From Inhella proteolytica (GTDB lineage Bacteria; Pseudomonadota; Gammaproteobacteria; Burkholderiales; Burkholderiaceae_C): a DNA stretch of 64,000 bases. Below the pieces are notes generated by a model. It searched no databases and was not told the DNA's origin. It worked only from the letters and a program-made list of their open reading frames with translations. Shown here piece by piece: positions 16,845 to 50,904 of this stretch. The translations under genes were made by a program, and so were the position numbers. How positions within the stretch are numbered: the stretch's first letter is position 1; the number at the start of each line of letters is the position of its first letter. Location of the stretch: the NCBI RefSeq assembly GCF_016093275.1, contig NZ_JAEDAK010000006.1:1-64000 (forward strand), read 5' to 3'.

Positions 16845-16938
16845 GCGTCCGCTCCGGGGTGCCCTGCATGGGCTGAGATGGTGCTGTTGAGACCAAACCC
16901 GAGAACTTGATCCGGTTCGTACCGGCGTAAGGAGAGTC
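16845..16938 (+). promoter_or_regulatory. TPP riboswitch (thi box)
   Basis: This leader contains the conserved TPP aptamer elements in order: CTCCGGGGTGCC (16852-16863), GGGCTGAGA (near 16870-16878), ACTTGATCCGG (near 16905-16915) and CCGGCGTAAGGAGAG (16922-16936). P1 can pair CTCC with GGAG. Binding of thiamin pyrophosphate is expected to repress the operand thiC operon. Downstream, CCGCCC (16945-16950) can pair with GGGCGG (16969-16974), a possible expression platform; the thiC ribosome binding site AAGGA is at 17001. Confidence 0.9.
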
Positions 16939-17001
16939 GTGAATCCGCCCTGCGTGCATCCGTGCGCCGGGCGGGGCGCCTTCCGGAGCACTCACCGCTG
17001 A

Positions 17002-45156: not shown

Positions 45157-45282
45157 GCGCCCTGCGCTCCTGAAGAAGACCCGGCGCCCCGCCCGGGTTC
45201 ATTGACCCAAGGCCGCAGCTCTGCGGCCGGCTTCCCCTCCCAGCCTGTTCTGCGCACCTGCCGGTGCGCAGTGGGTCCGCTT

Positions 45283-45550
45283 AGGGCCTGTTAACACTAC
45301 GCGAAGCCACCGCGTTGCCAGCCAGAAAAGGCGCCAACGAGGCGCGAAATGAAGCCGGGGTAGGCCCCCGGCGAGGCTTCGCAACGAAGTGGGCGCCTTT
45401 TTCTGGTGGCAACCCGAAGGGAATGGGGCTGCCCGGCCGCCATGCGTCGTTGCAACGCTCGCCCAGACGCGGGTCTGGGCGTCGCGCTGCGCCTAGCCTG
45501 GCGGCTGGGCGGCCCCATTCGCGGGGCTCCGCGTAGTGTTAACAGGCCCT
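45283..45550. mobile_element. 268-bp element with 21-bp perfect terminal inverted repeats
   Basis: Left end AGGGCCTGTTAACACTACGC (45283 on, plus G) is the exact reverse complement of the right end (45530-45550). Pairing continues inward with few mismatches. Inside are further nested inverted repeats: 45314-45335 with 45392-45413, GCCGGGG/CCCCGGC at 45354-45372, and CGCCCAGAC/GTCTGGGCG near 45459-45480. No transposase or long ORF is present. This is the layout of a MITE-like or structured repeat. A 24-bp piece recurs at 53136-53159. No target-site duplication is clear. Confidence 0.65.
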
Positions 45551-45584: not shown

Positions 45585-46652
45585 ATGATCGACATCGCTT
45601 TCGAAGCCCTGCGCCCGCTCGGCCTCAGCCCCACCATCGCCCTGCGCGCCGCGCAGATGCATGAACCCAGCGCCAGCCGCCTGAGCCTGGCCCGCGTCAC
45701 CGAAGTGCAGCGCGACTGCGTGACCCTGCACGACGGCATGGCTGAGCACAGCGCCCGCCTCTTGCCCCGGCTGCTGCAGCAGCTGCAATCGGAAGCCACC
45801 CAGCTGACCATCGGCGACTGGGTTGGCATGACCGTCGACGCCCATGCCCAGGCCTGGGCCGTCGAGCGCGTCGCCCCCATCACCCAGATCGCCCGCCGTG
45901 CCAACGACGGGCGGCGCCAGCTGCTGGCCAGCAATGTCGACGTGGCCCTGCTGGTGATGGGCCTGGACGCCGACTTCAACGCCCGTCGCATGGAGCGCTA
46001 CCTGGCCATGGTGCGCAGCTGCGAGGTCACGCCCGTCGTCGTGCTCACCAAGCAGGACATCGCGCCGGCCGCGCCCGAGCGCATCCAGGAGATGTACCGC
46101 CGCCTGCCCGCCACCGTGCCGGTGCTGCCGGTGAATGGCTTGTCCCACGAGGCCCGCACCGCCATCGGCCCCTGGCTGCACCCGGGCCAGACCCTGGTGC
46201 TGCTGGGCTCATCCGGTGCGGGCAAGTCCACGCTCATCAACACCCTGGCGGGCGCCGACCAGGCCACTGGCGGCGTGCGCAGCAGCGACGGCCGCGGCCG
46301 CCACACCACCACCGCGCGCTCGCTGCACCGCTGCGCGCAGGGCGCTTGCATCATCGACACCCCAGGCCTGCGCACCTTCCGCCCCGACGCCGACGCCCAA
46401 CAGCTCGCCGCCACCTTCGAAGACGTGCAGGCCCTGGCTCAGCAATGCCGCTTCCGCGACTGCCGCCACGAGAACGAGCCCGGCTGCGTGGTGCGCGCCA
46501 GCGTCGACGCCGACCGGCTGCAGAACTACCAGAAGCTGTTGCGCGATGCCCAGCGCGTCGAGATGACGGCGCTGGATCGCATCGAGCAACGCAACAAGTG
46601 GAAGGCGATCGGCAAGGCCGGCAGCCAGCGGGCGCGGGAGAAGCGGGCGTGA
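45585..46652 (+). CDS. rsgA: Ribosome small subunit-dependent GTPase A
   Basis: A 355-residue circularly permuted GTPase that helps late 30S maturation. It has an OB-fold N-terminus and the permuted order G4 (VVLTKQD), G1 (LLGSSGAGKSTLIN), G2/switch region (GRGRHTTTARSL) and G3 (IIDTPGLR). The C-terminal zinc knuckle is CRFRDCRHENEPGC. Its N-terminal region is longer and less typical than E. coli RsgA, and many Burkholderiales carry a second rsgA next to orn; whether this is the housekeeping copy is unknown. It starts 34 bp after the inverted-repeat element, which may therefore lie in its leader. Confidence 0.9.
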   Translation: MIDIAFEALRPLGLSPTIALRAAQMHEPSASRLSLARVTEVQRDCVTLHDGMAEHSARLLPRLLQQLQSEATQLTIGDWVGMTVDAHAQAWAVERVAPITQIARRANDGRRQLLASNVDVALLVMGLDADFNARRMERYLAMVRSCEVTPVVVLTKQDIAPAAPERIQEMYRRLPATVPVLPVNGLSHEARTAIGPWLHPGQTLVLLGSSGAGKSTLINTLAGADQATGGVRSSDGRGRHTTTARSLHRCAQGACIIDTPGLRTFRPDADAQQLAATFEDVQALAQQCRFRDCRHENEPGCVVRASVDADRLQNYQKLLRDAQRVEMTALDRIEQRNKWKAIGKAGSQRAREKRA

Positions 46653-47159: not shown

Positions 47160-47501
47160 TCAGCTCTCGGGGTCGTCCCCGAACTCGCGCAGTTCCTGCG
47201 CGCAGCGGCAGGCCTGGGCGATCCGCGCCGCCCACCGCACGGCGACCTCGCGCGAGGGCAGGCGCAGCACACAGAAGCCGCCGTCGAACTCCCGCGTCTG
47301 CGGATAGGTGGCCTGGCGAACCGTGCTGTCGGCCTCCACCATGAGGGGGGCGACTGCCGTGTGGATGCCGCCCGCGAACGCATAGACCCCTGCCGCCTTG
47401 GCCTCGCGAATGACCTGGCGCGCCGCCTCGCCCACGGCGGCCAGTTCCTCGGCGGGGACGTTCATCGCACTGGCGGGGAAGGAGATGAGGTAGTTCGGCA
47501 T
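47160..47501 (-). CDS. YCII-family protein (copy 1)
   Basis: A 113-residue protein starting MPNYLISFPASAMNVPAEEL. It is related to YCII/YciI and DGPF proteins: an alpha+beta fold with QVIREAKAAGVYAFAGGI and the FDGGFCVLRLPSRE segment that replaces DGPFxExKE. YCII members are small enzymes or fusion partners of ECF sigma factors; function here unknown. It has a close paralogue at 50563 in the same orientation, 24 differences over 113 aligned residues by my count. The two flank the HNH/tRNA module. Confidence 0.78.
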   Translation of the reverse strand: MPNYLISFPASAMNVPAEELAAVGEAARQVIREAKAAGVYAFAGGIHTAVAPLMVEADSTVRQATYPQTREFDGGFCVLRLPSREVAVRWAARIAQACRCAQELREFGDDPES

Positions 47502-47772: not shown

Positions 47773-48330
47773 TCAGCTCAGGCGAGACGCACGAGGCAGT
47801 CGGGCCGCGAGCCACTGATGCACGTCGGCCCGGATGTTCCGGCCCTTGAGCAGGAAGTCCTCGTGGCGGTTCGGCACATAGGGCAGGTAGAGCAGGGGCA
47901 TGCCCGCCTGCTCGGGCGTGCGGTCGGCCTTGGTGGCATTGCAGGCGCGGCAGGCGGCCACGGTGTTCATCCAGCTCAGGGCGCCGCCGCGGCTTTCCGG
48001 CACGATGTGGTCGATCGTCAGCTCCCGTTCCGGGGCCTGTTCGCCGCAGTACGCACAGGTGTGCCGGTCGCGCCGCAGCACCTTGGACTTGGCGTAGCAG
48101 GGCAGCTGATTGAACAGATTGACCCGCGAGGCACCGCGCAAGGCCACGATGGCCGGCACTTCCAGGGTGGATTGCCGGCCGGTGGCGGCATTCATGCCGC
48201 CGCGCAGCACCGCCATGGGCTCGTCCCCCAGCGACCACACCACGGCCCGGCTGGCCACGTGGCTGGCCGCGTCTTGCACGGAAATCCAGGCCTGCGGCAT
48301 TCCCGTGATGTCCAGCTGGAGCACTTCCAT
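47773..48330 (-). CDS. HNH endonuclease downstream of the tRNA array
   Basis: A 185-residue protein with a C-terminal HNH nuclease domain: RRDRHTCAYCGEQ (CxxC), LTIDHIVPESRGG (HNH His and Asp), SWMNTVAACRACNATKADR (CxxC and Asn). The structural zinc Cys pairs and the catalytic His are all present. The N-terminal half (LQLDITGMPQAWISVQDAAS) is a family-specific domain. AAGGAG lies before ATG 48330. It is co-oriented with and 120 bp downstream of the last tRNA gene. It might be transcribed with the array; whether it acts on DNA or tRNA is unknown. Confidence 0.88.
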   Translation of the reverse strand: MEVLQLDITGMPQAWISVQDAASHVASRAVVWSLGDEPMAVLRGGMNAATGRQSTLEVPAIVALRGASRVNLFNQLPCYAKSKVLRRDRHTCAYCGEQAPERELTIDHIVPESRGGALSWMNTVAACRACNATKADRTPEQAGMPLLYLPYVPNRHEDFLLKGRNIRADVHQWLAARLPRASRLS

Positions 48331-48450: not shown

Positions 48451-48525
48451 TGGCAGGGGCGCGCGACTCGAACGCGCAACACACGGCTTCAAAGGCCGTT
48501 GTTCTACCGATTGAGCGACGCCCCA
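48451..48525 (-). tRNA. tRNA-Gln (TTG)
   Basis: Cloverleaf of 75 nt including encoded CCA. Anticodon loop CTTTGAA gives TTG on a perfect 5-bp stem (ACGGC/GCCGT); T arm GCGCG-TTCGAGT-CGCGC. Position 1 is T and position 72 is T, a mismatch at the end of the acceptor stem with G73; a weak 1-72 pair is compatible with Gln identity. The D stem has one mismatch. Last tRNA of the array. Confidence 0.82.
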
Positions 48526-48536
48526 TCCGAACAAGT

Positions 48537-48612
48537 TGGCTCCGTAGGCAGGCTTCGAACCCGCGCACTCCCGGTTAACAGCCGGGCGCTCTACCTGCTG
48601 AGCTACTACGGA
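48537..48612 (-). tRNA. tRNA-Asn (GTT)
   Basis: 76 nt with CCA. Acceptor TCCGTAG/CTACGGA, anticodon stem CCCGG/CCGGG with loop CTGTTAA (anticodon GTT), T arm GCGGG-TTCGAAG-CCTGC, G73. All arms pair well. Confidence 0.93.
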
Positions 48613-48627
48613 ATGGGTTGGTTGGGG

Positions 48628-48702
48628 TGGCGCCTCCGGCACGAGTCGAACGTGCAGCCTTCGGGTTCGGAACCCGGTGCTCATCCATTGAGCTTCGGAG
48701 GC
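48628..48702 (-). tRNA. tRNA-Arg (CCG)
   Basis: 75 nt with CCA. Acceptor GCCTCCG/CGGAGGC, anticodon loop TTCCGAA (anticodon CCG), T arm GCACG-TTCGACT-CGTGC, G73. The outermost anticodon-stem pair is a C-A mismatch. The anticodon reads CGG. Confidence 0.9.
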
Positions 48703-48706
48703 GAGA

Positions 48707-48797
48707 TGGCGGATGCACTCGGATTCGAACCGAGGCGCCGGTGTGGACCGGCGACGGCTTAGCAAGCCGCTCCCTTAGACCGCTCGGGCATGCATCC
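48707..48797 (-). tRNA. tRNA-Ser (GCT)
   Basis: 91-nt class II tRNA with CCA. Acceptor GGATGCA/TGCATCC, anticodon loop TTGCTAA (anticodon GCT), long variable arm CGCCGGT...ACCGGCG, T arm CTCGG-TTCGAAT-CCGAG, G73. Only 4 bases separate it from tRNA-Arg. Confidence 0.93.
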
Positions 48798-48802
48798 TGG
48801 GT

Positions 48803-48891
48803 TGGTGCCGACGCTCAGGTTCGAACTGAGACGCCCTCGCGGGCGACGGCTTCTGAGGCCGCTGCGTCTTCCGTGGTTCCGCCACGTCGGC
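48803..48891 (-). tRNA. tRNA-Leu (CAG)
   Basis: 89-nt class II tRNA with CCA. Acceptor GCCGACG/CGTCGGC, anticodon loop CTCAGAA (anticodon CAG), variable arm CGCCC-GCGA-GGGCG, T arm CTCAG-TTCGAAC-CTGAG, A73 as expected for leucine. Confidence 0.93.
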
Positions 48892-48914
48892 AGGGGAAGG
48901 GGGGCCATGTCCTT

Positions 48915-48990
48915 TGGGGTGACCGGCCGGATTCGAACCGGCGATGCAAGGGTCACAACCTTGAGCCTTGGGCCGCTAGGCGACGGTCAC
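48915..48990 (-). tRNA. tRNA-His (GTG), without encoded G-1
   Basis: 76 nt with CCA. Acceptor GTGACCG/CGGTCAC, anticodon stem CAAGG/CCTTG with loop TTGTGAC (anticodon GTG), T arm GCCGG-TTCGAAT-CCGGC, C73. The base before position 1 is T, not the G-1 that normally pairs with C73 and is needed by most bacterial HisRS. Confidence 0.9.
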
Positions 48991-49010
48991 ACCAAAGGAC
49001 ACGGCAAGAC

Positions 49011-49086
49011 TGGCGCCACCAGCGGGTTTCGATCCCGCGGCCTCCGGTTCGACAGACCGGCGCTCTCCCAGCTGAGCTATGGCGGC
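49011..49086 (-). tRNA. tRNA-Asp (GTC)
   Basis: 76 nt with CCA. Acceptor GCCGCCA/TGGTGGC (one G-T), anticodon stem CCGGT/ACCGG with loop CTGTCGA (anticodon GTC), G73 as in Asp tRNAs. The T loop reads ATCGAAA, so the usual T54 is A. Confidence 0.9.
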
Positions 49087-49105
49087 ATAAAGGGATGGGA
49101 AGGGT

Positions 49106-49182
49106 TGGTCGGGGTGACACGGTTCGAACGTGCGACAGCTCGCTCCCAAAGCGAGGGCTCTACCTGGCTGAGCTACACCCCG
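49106..49182 (-). tRNA. tRNA-Pro (TGG)
   Basis: 77 nt with CCA. Acceptor CGGGGTG/CACCCCG, with the C1-G72 pair typical of bacterial proline tRNA; A73. Anticodon stem CTCGC/GCGAG with loop TTTGGGA (anticodon TGG). Confidence 0.93.
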
Positions 49183-49322
49183 ATGTTGTTTTGGTTGGAT
49201 GTGAAGGGAAAGGATGTCGGTGACGGGTTCCGACGCCACCCCAATCGTTGGTGGCCGGTTTCCGCCCCCGAAGCGTGAGCTCGACGGGGGCTTCTGAAGC
49301 GTGATGCAAGCCTGCGCAGACC
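49183..49322. other. Spacer inside the tRNA array
   Basis: 140 bases between tRNA-Glu and tRNA-Pro. I find no eleventh cloverleaf. A 7-bp inverted repeat GCCCCCG/CGGGGGC (about 49264-49291) is present. Confidence 0.4.
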
Positions 49323-49397
49323 TGGTGCCCCGTGTGGAAATCGAATCCACCTCTTCGGCTTGAAGGGCCGAGAACCTCACCAGAGGTCCAACGGGGC
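49323..49397 (-). tRNA. tRNA-Glu (TTC), unusual C33
   Basis: 75 nt with CCA. Acceptor GCCCCGT/ACGGGGC, D stem GACC/GGTT, T arm GTGGA-TTCGATT-TCCAC, A73. The anticodon stem TCGGC/GCCGA encloses loop CCTTCAA, giving anticodon TTC but C instead of the near-universal U33. Confidence 0.82.
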
Positions 49398-49451
49398 CGG
49401 TCTTCCATCTGGGCTGTCTCCGCACGCGACGAGCGGCAGCGCATCGCTGCA

Positions 49452-49473
49452 TGCCAGCGCGGCCGCGCTGGCA
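49452..49473. repeat. 22-bp perfect palindrome in the tRNA array
   Basis: TGCCAGCGCGG and its exact complement CCGCGCTGGCA meet without a spacer between tRNA-Gly and tRNA-Glu. It resembles a site for a dimeric DNA-binding protein or nuclease rather than an RNA hairpin. Confidence 0.55.
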
Positions 49474-49477
49474 CACA

Positions 49478-49507
49478 TGCACACCGGACCGGTCCGGTGC
49501 TTGTGCA
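49478..49507. repeat. Second palindrome in the tRNA array
   Basis: CACCGGACC-GGTCCGGTG (49482-49499) is an 18-bp perfect palindrome. Outer arms TGCAC(A) and TGTGCA extend it with a small bulge. It lies 4 bases from the 22-bp palindrome. Confidence 0.55.
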
Positions 49508-49522
49508 CGGGGACACCCCAGA

Positions 49523-49598
49523 TGGAGCAGACGGAGGGGATCGAACCCTCGACCTCAACGGTGGAAGCGTTGCGCGCTACCGACTGCGCCACGTCTGC
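49523..49598 (-). tRNA. tRNA-Gly (TCC)
   Basis: 76 nt with CCA. Acceptor GCAGACG/CGTCTGC, D arm GCGC/GCGC, anticodon stem CAACG/CGTTG with loop CTTCCAC (anticodon TCC), T arm GAGGG-TTCGATC-CCCTC, T73. First tRNA of the array. Confidence 0.94.
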
Positions 49599-49647: not shown

Positions 49648-49658
49648 TGTTAAAGAGC
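49648..49658 (-). promoter_or_regulatory. boxA-like antitermination site
   Basis: The minus strand reads GCTCTTTAACA, matching the core of the rrn boxA consensus TGCTCTTTAACA bound by NusB/NusE. It is 50 bases upstream of tRNA-Gly, so the array may be transcribed under antitermination. A possible -35 TTGACT lies at 49709-49704, without a clear -10. Confidence 0.6.
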
Positions 49659-49731: not shown

Positions 49732-49771
49732 AAAACAAAGAGGCCCGGATCCTTGGGGGAGTCCGGGCCTC
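49732..49771 (-). terminator. Intrinsic terminator upstream of the tRNA array
   Basis: Stem GAGGCCCGGA/TCCGGGCCTC (10 bp, 12-nt loop) followed on the minus strand by TTTGTTTT. It would end a transcript coming from the 50090 region and insulate the array from it. Confidence 0.75.
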
Positions 49772-49794
49772 TTGCGAGCTTGGAAGATGTGCGC

Positions 49795-49974
49795 CTACGC
49801 GCCATCCTCTCCCGGTGGTTCCTGGTCCTCCTGATTCACCAACCCAGCATGGGCGTGGTGCCGGGGCGACCGGACCTGCGACGGCAGGGCATCAAGGCCA
49901 CTCACGCACGCACCCAGACTGGCGCTGCCCGGCAGGGGCGGCACTTGGGTGGCGGGGCGGTAGGTGCGGTTCAC
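49795..49974 (-). CDS. Candidate small ORF divergent from the regulator gene
   Basis: A 59-residue frame from GTG 49974 (N-terminus MNRTYRPATQVPPLPGSASL) that stops 23 bases before the terminator. Third positions are GC-rich as in real genes here, but the ribosome binding site is weak. The family is unknown. A promoter with a perfect TTGACA (50094-50089, minus) and an operator-like site in its spacer lies upstream. This gives a promoter-gene-terminator unit facing away from the regulator gene, like a small repressor-controlled gene. Confidence 0.38.
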   Translation of the reverse strand: MNRTYRPATQVPPLPGSASLGACVSGLDALPSQVRSPRHHAHAGLVNQEDQEPPGEDGA

Positions 49975-50068
49975 GATGCGTCCGTTGCGGTTGAAGAGGT
50001 TTTGGGAATTCTGCGGTGGTCAGGTTGGACAAGAAGCCCTTCGGCTCCTTGTGTCGATGGATTGAAGT

Positions 50069-50083
50069 GTGAAGAACGTTCAC
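50069..50083. promoter_or_regulatory. Operator-like site 3 (GTGAA-N5-TTCAC)
   Basis: GTGAA-GAACG-TTCAC, lying between a minus-strand TTGACA (50094-50089) and the expected -10 position. Occupancy would block the divergent minus-strand promoter. Confidence 0.6.
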
Positions 50084-50102
50084 AATCCTGTCAAGCGCAA
50101 CC

Positions 50103-50117
50103 GTGAAAAACCTTCAC
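50103..50117. promoter_or_regulatory. Operator-like site 1 (GTGAA-N5-TTCAC)
   Basis: GTGAA-AAACC-TTCAC, just upstream of a TACAAT -10-like hexamer (50121-50126, plus). With the site at 50131 it forms a 16-bp perfect inverted repeat (50103-50118 and 50130-50145) around that -10. Confidence 0.65.
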
Positions 50118-50130
50118 GCCTACAATTTGC

Positions 50131-50145
50131 GTGAAGGTTTTTCAC
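50131..50145. promoter_or_regulatory. Operator-like site 2 (GTGAA-N5-TTCAC)
   Basis: GTGAA-GGTTT-TTCAC, immediately after the TACAAT hexamer and at the first possible codon of the regulator gene. Binding here and at site 1 would repress the regulator's own promoter. Confidence 0.65.
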
Positions 50146-50538
50146 AACACAAACCCGGCGCTCGACGTGGCTTCCAGCATCACCACCATCCGCAGGCAGA
50201 ACGTCCTGAGCCTCTTCCAGACCTTTGCGGAGGAGCGCATCGCCGCCGGCGATCAGCCCAAGGGCCTGGAGGCCACGTTCGCAGCCCATCTGGGTGTGAG
50301 CGGTGCCACCTGGAGCATGGCCAAGTCCGGCAGCCGCCCCATCGGGGACAAGCTCGCCCGGCAGATCGAGCACAGCTGCGGCAAGGAGGCCGGCTGGCTG
50401 GACGAGGAGCGCGAACCCCAGGGCCTGACCGCCGCAGAGCAGCAGTTTCTGGCCATGGCCCTGCAGGCCTGGCGCGCCACCAACAGCGACGGCAGGAAGC
50501 AGCTGCGCGCGCTGATGAAGCAGTTCCGGTCCGCCTGA
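50131..50538 (+). CDS. Small lambda-repressor-like (XRE-type) regulator
   Basis: A protein of up to 135 residues. The region FAAHLGVSGATWSMAKSGSR-PIGDKLARQIE reads as a helix-turn-helix of the lambda-repressor-like class, followed by a C-terminal helical part (LTAAEQQFLAMALQAWRATN) likely for dimerisation. The start is unclear: GTG 50131 lies inside an operator-like repeat and only 5 bases from a -10-like TACAAT, so translation would be nearly leaderless. GTG 50167 is an alternative. Three copies of GTGAA-N5-TTCAC around its start suggest autoregulation. It sits beside the tRNA array and may control that module (inference). Confidence 0.68.
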   Translation: MKVFHNTNPALDVASSITTIRRQNVLSLFQTFAEERIAAGDQPKGLEATFAAHLGVSGATWSMAKSGSRPIGDKLARQIEHSCGKEAGWLDEEREPQGLTAAEQQFLAMALQAWRATNSDGRKQLRALMKQFRSA

Positions 50539-50562: not shown

Positions 50563-50904
50563 TCAGCTCTCGGGGTCGTCAAAGAACTCGCGCAGTTCCT
50601 GCGCGCACCGGCAGGCTTTGGCGATCTTGGCTGCCCACAGCTCGGCCGCTTCACGCGAGGGCAGACGCAGCACACAGAAGCCGCCGTCGAAGTCCTTCGT
50701 CTGCGGATAGGTTCCCTGGCTGAGCGTGCCGTCCCCGTCCACCCGCTGCGGCGGCATCGCCGCGTTGATGCCACCGGCGAACCTGTACACGCCGGCCGCC
50801 TTCGCCTCGCGAATGACCTGGCGCGCGGCTTCGCCCACGACGGGAAGCTCCTCGGCGGGGACGTTCATGGCGCTGGCGGGGAAAGAGATGAGGTAGTGGG
50901 GCAT
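50563..50904 (-). CDS. YCII-family protein (copy 2)
   Basis: A 113-residue paralogue of the gene at 47160 with the same start (MPHYLISFPASAMNVPAEEL) and end (AQELREFFDDPES). The 3' ends are also nearly identical in DNA (CAGCTCTCGGGGTCGTC in both). AAGGA precedes the ATG. The divergent middle (about residues 40-75) suggests an old duplication. The two copies are direct repeats bracketing the HNH/tRNA/regulator module. Confidence 0.78.
   Translation of the reverse strand: MPHYLISFPASAMNVPAEELPVVGEAARQVIREAKAAGVYRFAGGINAAMPPQRVDGDGTLSQGTYPQTKDFDGGFCVLRLPSREAAELWAAKIAKACRCAQELREFFDDPES

Follow-up and report, generated by a model that had tools for sequence, protein, structure and literature searches.

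The stretch of DNA analysed here, referred to as the window, comprises 64,000 nucleotides of Inhella proteolytica (contig NZ_JAEDAK010000006.1, positions 1 to 64,000) and carries a compact tRNA array with an adjoining HNH endonuclease gene. The array consists of ten tRNA genes on the minus strand (48,452–49,598) called by ARAGORN, which finds none elsewhere in the 64-kb window. Their transcribed order is Gly(UCC)-Glu(UUC)-Pro(UGG)-Asp(GUC)-His(GUG)-Leu(CAG)-Ser(GCU)-Arg(CCG)-Asn(GUU)-Gln(UUG). Most intergenic gaps are short, with seven of 4–23 bases and only two longer ones, of 125 and 140. The Rfam tRNA model recovers nine of the ten in at least one of two scans, eight per scan; one scan lacks Glu and Pro, the other Leu and Pro, and Pro is called by ARAGORN alone. 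CCA is encoded in all ten tRNAs, with the final A of Gln at 48,451, one base past the ARAGORN end. The original prediction had described tRNAs for ten amino acids on one strand within 1.15 kb, all encoding CCA; the ARAGORN run confirms the former and a reading of the sequence the latter. Ten tRNAs in 1.15 kb agree with the unusually high number and density that characterise the tRNA array unit of Morgado and Vicente, applied here qualitatively, without their numerical threshold. As the array type recurs in relatives, chance is of no concern.

The array is embedded in a set of predicted control features. Downstream and on the same strand, as had been predicted, lies a gene (47,773–48,330, minus strand) for an HNH endonuclease of 185 amino acids (Pfam HNH_5, E 9.8e-17). 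Upstream, a divergent gene on the plus strand (50,167–50,538; likely GTG start at 50,167, open reading frame (ORF) open from 50,131) encodes a helix-turn-helix (HTH)-type protein. Its match to the PHROG 'transcriptional repressor' (E 1.4e-8) substantiates the regulator that the original prediction had invoked; it has no match to a Pfam family, and its best E value against solved structures is only 0.17. A putative array promoter (50,066–50,094, minus strand), identified in aligned leaders by consensus resemblance only, consists of the −35 element TTGACA (50,089–50,094), a 17-base spacer and the −10 element CACACT (50,066–50,071). Three palindromes of the form GTGAA-N5-TTCAC are located at 50,069–50,083, 50,103–50,117 and 50,131–50,145, the first of which overlaps this promoter. 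The leader comprises an ORF of 59 codons plus stop (49,795–49,974, minus strand), with a GTG start and the end PPGEDGA-stop, a hairpin H1 (49,783–49,809, minus strand) with the ORF stop codon in its loop, and an intrinsic terminator (49,732–49,771, minus strand) formed by hairpin H2 (49,740–49,771) and a T-rich tail (49,732–49,739). A boxA-like element, GCTCTTTAACA (49,648–49,658, minus strand), begins 60 nt before the first tRNA. Finally, a two-hairpin RNA element, termed E2, lies between tRNA-Glu and tRNA-Pro (49,215–49,262, minus strand). The operators and terminator suggest that the array is subject to control.

The array is redundant within its own genome. A census of the fetched stretches counts 64 tRNAs, and each array anticodon is present at least once outside the array. 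Anticodon-arm identity between the window tRNAs and the best host isoacceptor ranges from 0.35 to 0.76 over the ten, and the array thus combines redundancy with divergence from the chromosomal isoacceptors, as do tRNA array units. In five congeners, the array DNA matches ordinary tRNAs only, and a genome of another genus holds a clear related block. When 18 kb were searched within the genus, the region from about 43.6 to 53.2 kb yielded, among the matches listed, only scattered pieces, namely a VOC-type gene, a dispersed repeat, a YCII-type gene, an HNH paralogue and ordinary tRNAs; the left and right flanks match separate places in the genus, again among the matches listed. The block is accessory. 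A housekeeping tRNA operon is out, with the anticodons duplicated elsewhere and no array match in the five congeners; the tRNAs are neither sole copies nor syntenic across the genus, and the earlier view that this is no housekeeping operon stands. The same prediction had also offered codon supply. Arrays do cover most amino acids with few isoacceptors each, which speaks for a supply to high-demand or foreign genes, but this genome already has every array anticodon elsewhere; we therefore reject codon supply, which we consider extremely improbable.

HNH relatives occur in at least 277 of 299 genomes of the family and fall into two groups. A ubiquitous (core) paralogue shows less than 58% identity and has one copy in the window genome, at C13; an accessory, array-associated group of at least 60% identity comprises 35 loci in 34 genomes, the window included. 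The 60% cut was chosen after seeing the gap between the lowest member (60%, 242.7 bits) and the next match (57%, 218.7 bits). Same-strand tRNAs lie 5′ of the HNH gene in 31 of the 35 accessory loci, two or more of them in 29, with a maximum of 28, and some loci have a further tRNA 3′ of the gene. None of 27 core-paralogue control loci has an array, three of them holding a single tRNA-Met. The four fullest arrays contain 22–28 tRNAs in a largely common order, read by eye as approximately Gly-Thr-Glu-Ala-Asp-Phe-Arg-Tyr-Trp-Cys-Asn-Ile-Pro-His-Lys-Leu-Met-Ser-Lys-Gln-Val-Arg-HNH, and the window array and several others look like reductions of this order. The eight core paralogues make up a single clade in the protein tree, with support of 97/97. 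The HNH gene is a frequent, not a universal, companion of tRNA array units, and it is present here. Searches with the HNH protein found no relative in the viral contig scan and four distant matches in the genome contig scan, none with an array; solved structures matched in HNH domains only. Membership of a known defence system was rejected, as the best PADLOC match (E 1.3e-9) covers only the HNH domain (residues 81–143).

The regulator and the leader accompany these arrays. A regulator homologue is found in 29 of the 35 accessory loci, the window included, versus 0 of 27 core-paralogue loci. Twelve loci aligned upstream, in two sets, have a common TTGAC −35 element, and a palindrome covers their spacer and −10 region. 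The GTGAA-N5-TTCAC type seen in the window occurs upstream in seven other accessory loci. The aligned loci also carry a strong intrinsic terminator far downstream of the promoter. A profile of the terminator region, built from ten of the accessory loci, matches 31 of the 35 accessory loci and 0 of 8 core loci searched. The boxA-like sequence begins 60–63 nt 5′ of the first tRNA in ten of the 35 loci, counting the window, two of them with one mismatch. The original prediction that array, HNH gene and regulator form a module is borne out by their joint recurrence across the family. Operators, leader, E2, the RtcB connection and the larger arrays of relatives had no part in that prediction.

Across relatives, the ORF in the leader region ends near PGEGSA-stop. 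Leader ORFs were extracted from 25 of 31 leaders by a script that seeks the end motif and prefers ATC-GTG starts, and that missed the other six; a more permissive script found similar ends in five of these. The 25 stop codons are 17 TAG, 4 TAA and 4 TGA. In 19 of the 25, P-G or S-G stands at a constant distance from the stop, and the last six sense codons of those 19 vary by 0.25, 0.23 and 0.46 at the three codon positions, the third being highest. AGGA precedes the start in 12 of the 25 leader ORFs and AGG in 18, and the window has neither. When folded, 17 of the 25 leaders place all three stop-codon bases in a hairpin loop. A leader ORF followed by an intrinsic terminator is the arrangement of a ribosome-mediated attenuator, as judged from sequence. 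We did not file the element as one, given that minimum-energy folds of 12 leaders at two ribosome positions retained the terminator and gave no alternative antiterminator. Assignment to a known Rfam leader was likewise rejected, there being no Rfam match.

A covariance model of the leader, searched over the 299 family genomes, gave 53 matches of at least 45 bits among the matches listed, a cut chosen after seeing the results, and 26 of these had served to build the model. Among the 27 that had not, 17 lie ahead of an array or of the RNA ligase gene rtcB, again among the matches listed: an accessory HNH locus, five arrays with no HNH gene in the fetched stretch, a pair of arrays that have RtcB plus a fragment of HNH, and nine RtcB loci. 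At these nine, the leader lies 0.4–4.0 kb upstream of RtcB with no array, one of them having a single tRNA. The remaining matches include one at a contig end, and 26 of the 27 were examined. One alternative is that the HNH enzyme is a selfish homing element that spreads itself, with the tRNAs as passengers or targets. Such a role has been proposed for mycobacterial arrays, in the excerpts of the paper used here (PMC5966550), and the HNH gene persists at four loci without tRNAs. However, the HNH gene stands 3′ of the tRNAs in the 31 tRNA-bearing accessory loci, regulator and leader are kept in most of them, and two leader-led arrays (L268, L275) lack HNH over more than 11 kb downstream; three further HNH-less arrays end at contig ends and are uninformative. 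We consider homing rather improbable. The HNH and zinc-binding residues of the window copy look intact, as this explanation would have it.

The E2 element consists of 47 bases in two hairpins with the loops AACGAUUGG and AACCCGUSA. It is present in 40 of 55 non-core loci (26 of 35 accessory and 14 of 20 leader loci) and in 0 of 8 core loci; the E2 model adds two more accessory loci, giving 28 of 35. Over 29 distinct sequences, 100% of the stem cells are paired with 11 two-sided changes; none of 500 shuffles scores as high, and slid controls pair at 28–49%. The window copy has compensatory changes in both stems. E2 has no Rfam match. Among the 299 family genomes, the E2 model gives 44 matches above 55 bits; 43 belong to leader or accessory loci, and the one other (G096) adjoins a regulator homologue. 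Of 349 genomes sampled from the order, two had a match at E 1e-9, both of them members of the family. Weaker matches amount to 53 at 28–51 bits, two of them at accessory loci. Twelve weaker sites were fetched; 11 are intergenic with similar flanks, and one (L295) resembles coding sequence. This weaker relative, present about once per genome (L288, L289, L290, L291, L292, L293, L294, L296, L297, L298, L300), may be a separate small RNA or leader.

The tRNAs themselves retain their structure. In nine isotype groups of 76-base array tRNAs, 96–100% of stem cells are paired, with two-sided changes in up to 16 of 21 pairs, and seven of the nine groups exceed all 200 shuffles, a result inflated by ARAGORN's own selection for paired stems. 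Such turnover with pairing kept argues against decay, and hence bears on whether the window copy is a decaying remnant, stripped of many ancestral tRNAs and now without importance. The window has ten tRNAs where the four fullest relatives have 22–28, 11 of the 35 accessory loci have three or fewer tRNAs upstream of HNH, and tRNA-Glu (48.9 bits) and tRNA-Gln (40.7 bits) score low with the Rfam model, all of which would fit a remnant. On the other hand, all ten are complete tRNA calls with CCA, and operators, leader ORF, terminator, boxA and E2, the last with compensated stems, are all in place in the window. A remnant is improbable. As a separate observation, ARAGORN calls two- or four-base anticodons in a few array tRNAs (L095 3287–3370, L137, L154, L283, L286); these are degenerate or unusual tRNAs.

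RNA-repair genes recur near the arrays. RtcB lies within the fetched stretch at 22 of the 35 accessory loci (19 as a full gene in the clustering) and an SPFH/slipin protein near 13, versus 0 of 27 core-paralogue loci in either case. Ro60/TROVE, RlaP, RtcA and RtcR are found near fewer accessory loci, with all names confirmed by Pfam. HNH, regulator, leader, E2 and RtcB are linked across the family. A second RsgA-type GTPase gene in the window (45,585–46,652, plus strand) lies 1.1 kb from the HNH gene and has only 31–33% matches in the five congeners. By model search, it has neither the leader nor E2 in front of it, and RsgA was rejected as a constant array neighbour, being matched only in the window among the array loci. 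In three of the 12 fetched weaker E2 sites, an RsgA gene begins 361–401 bases downstream, and these three proteins are 45–49% identical to the window's second RsgA. The latter as a functional partner of the array is suggestive only.

Arrays with related HNH genes also occur on mobile replicons. Of 14 plasmid or phage loci with HNH relatives that were fetched, eight carry arrays of 11–39 tRNAs (Methylibium, with 27 in M. petroleiphilum PM1, two Variovorax, Acidiphilium, Nostoc, Mycolicibacterium, Frondihabitans and a Salicola jumbo phage) and six carry none; in some, the HNH gene lies inside or before the array. The leader and E2 models both match two of these 14 loci, the plasmids of Methylibium and of one Variovorax; elsewhere neither model matches, and the best E2 score is 16.4 bits. 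A single cross-phylum clade of array HNH proteins was not adopted, since those of other phyla scatter on long branches, a pattern that does not disprove such a clade. These locations raise the possibility that the array is anti-defence or mobile-element cargo, in which plasmid and phage tRNAs resist host anticodon nucleases and the window copy is a captured element. Its patchy distribution fits this idea, as does the anticodon loop: U33 is invariant in all 54 host tRNAs and replaced in 25 of 289 array tRNAs, counts that draw on related, non-independent sequences. The replacement recurs in the first tRNA-Gly and in tRNA-Glu of the window and two relatives. Resistance of this kind is a published hypothesis for phage tRNAs, according to excerpts of that work (PMC10264068). 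Yet the arrays have a dedicated regulator, a leader and RNA-repair neighbours, the leader also precedes RtcB without any array, and nine of the ten window tRNAs keep U33, Glu being the exception. Moreover, nine of the 35 loci are on contigs of at least 1.9 Mb and hence not on small mobile replicons. Cargo is on balance unlikely.

We instead favour, with a probability of roughly 0.55, a reading of the block as a small version of a backup tRNA operon that recurs across the family, is expressed conditionally, is coupled to RNA repair and works in the manner of the Anabaena trn operon. In the resting state, the divergent HTH protein would bind the palindromes overlapping the array promoter and repress it. 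Entry into the array would be gated by the leader, with its short ORF, the hairpin around the stop codon and the intrinsic terminator, and the sensing step probably lies in translating the leader ORF. The boxA may help RNA polymerase across the untranslated tRNAs. Once released, the divergent and structurally sound isoacceptors could sustain translation during cleavage of host tRNAs or a translational block, and RtcB, RtcA and RlaP would meanwhile mend broken RNA. A possible role of the array in resisting tRNA cleavage, as had been proposed from the window, fits this scheme. The HNH protein most probably maintains, spreads or reshuffles the array.

Several observations weigh against the backup-operon reading. 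Conservation of the predicted leader peptide is confined to its last codons: over the whole ORF, the three codon positions differ to nearly the same extent (0.53, 0.56, 0.58), and the pattern at the end could partly reflect hairpin H1. The stop codon is partly paired in eight of the 25 leaders. Folding does not support the proposed antitermination step: the terminator persists in all 12 leaders folded with a ribosome at the stop or further upstream. Eight strong leader matches (L269, L270, L273, L276, L277, L278, L279, L280) have neither array nor RtcB downstream. The association of RtcB with accessory genomes (28 of 34 versus 55 of 265 others; Fisher 2e-12) speaks for this reading, but it is between related genomes, so that the value overstates independence. 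The one RtcB of the window genome lies on another contig (C39), in an RtcR-RtcB-RlaP-RtcA cluster, where the leader model has no match and the E2 model reaches at best 12 bits. Four accessory HNH loci (L123, L140, L145, L149) lack tRNAs, one of their HNH genes having an internal stop, and the accessory HNH group is not recovered as one clade in the tree. Lastly, not all window tRNAs resemble other arrays more than the host: in Pro, the acceptor stem is nearer to the host (0.93) than to other arrays (median 0.67).

Of the eight leader loci with neither array nor RtcB, five have the regulator and five have E2; they are either relics or have other target genes. More broadly, the family may possess a hitherto undescribed translation-damage regulon, in which the stop-in-loop leader and E2 gate reserve arrays, RtcB and the RsgA GTPase. 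We hold this wider proposal to be tentative, at somewhat less than even odds. If it is true, a ribosome lets cells detect faltering translation, and they respond by supplying new tRNAs, mending RNA and looking after the ribosome.

The nearest parallel is found in Anabaena PCC 7120, where, according to excerpts of the report (PMC10272220), a silent plasmid-borne trn operon of 26 tRNAs is induced by translation inhibitors. There, the trn array, rtcB and rsgA are under one repressor, and HNH and slipin genes rise in its mutant. Both systems have an array beside scattered housekeeping tRNAs, a repressor (a predicted one here) and a connection to rtcB, HNH and slipin genes, the one to rsgA being more tentative here. 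In contrast, the Anabaena repressor TrcR is a ribbon-helix-helix protein, a type to which the window regulator, with its matches to phage-repressor PHROGs, does not belong. The leader ORF, terminator and E2 are features of the present loci not mentioned for Anabaena in those excerpts. Anabaena co-regulates scattered genes, whereas here the connection consists of gene linkage and a common leader RNA, read from sequence alone. From this parallel, bacteria far apart in the tree may each have built a comparable response out of comparable components.

Mycobacterial tRNA arrays with HNH genes have been described as well (PMC5966550, PMC12803027). As excerpted, these units are dense, redundant and divergent from the host, with HNH as the commonest companion; one group has an XRE regulator, and plasmid and phage locations occur as they do here. 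The excerpts do not mention RtcB, leader or E2. The sole mycobacterial array HNH in our tree (Mycolicibacterium, L182) groups apart on a long branch. In Salmonella, RtcR responds to cut tRNAs, and the Rtc RNA repair operon (RtcR-RtcB-RtcA, Rsr, Y RNA) is similarly concerned with damaged tRNA (excerpts of PMC7790460). RtcB and, more rarely, RtcA, RtcR, Rsr or RlaP adjoin arrays in relatives. By contrast, a term search of those excerpts returned no tRNA genes in the Rtc operon; the arrays here have their own predicted repressor and leader, and the window locus itself contains no rtcB. Phage tRNA clusters also have anticodon loops altered relative to the host, changes proposed to evade anticodon nucleases. 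They differ in being phage-borne, and RtcB is not mentioned in the excerpts by term search (PMC10264068).

A tRNA array with HNH is therefore of a known kind, as the mycobacterial and Anabaena arrays show; the HTH regulator, leader, E2 and RtcB linkage set the present one apart as a new form. In the open-licence PMC literature, judged by titles and the starts of abstracts, we found no description of the present regulatory architecture, and no paper on Burkholderiales tRNA clusters or Methylibium arrays. The earlier cases of tRNA arrays, as far as the excerpts cover them, come from plasmids of cyanobacteria and mycobacteria, from genomes of mycobacteria and from phages. In the present case, a single family provides dozens of copies, which lie partly on contigs of chromosome size and partly on plasmids. 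The common regulator, leader and second RNA, along with the leader before RtcB alone, make the backup-tRNA hypothesis directly testable. Furthermore, the genomic evidence that ties arrays to RNA repair does not depend on gene names, and two candidate families of regulatory RNA that lack an Rfam match are added.

Further features were noted at and around these loci. The Methylibium plasmid array has protein genes inside it, among them those for an HD-domain protein and AlkB (L174 6188–7540), and the Variovorax plasmid array has one for an RNA ligase family protein (L175 6659–7720). One gene family is found near the arrays at L129, L138 and L148, its L138 member matching PcfJ. In the window, a dispersed repeat of about 270 bp (45,282–45,550) lies just 5′ of the second RsgA gene and is multicopy in the window genome and two congeners among the matches listed. 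Two YCII-like genes (47,160–47,498 and 50,563–50,904), 79% identical, stand on either side of the array module and may mark a duplication or insertion event. A TPP riboswitch aptamer exceeding the Rfam gathering score is located at 16,845–16,950.

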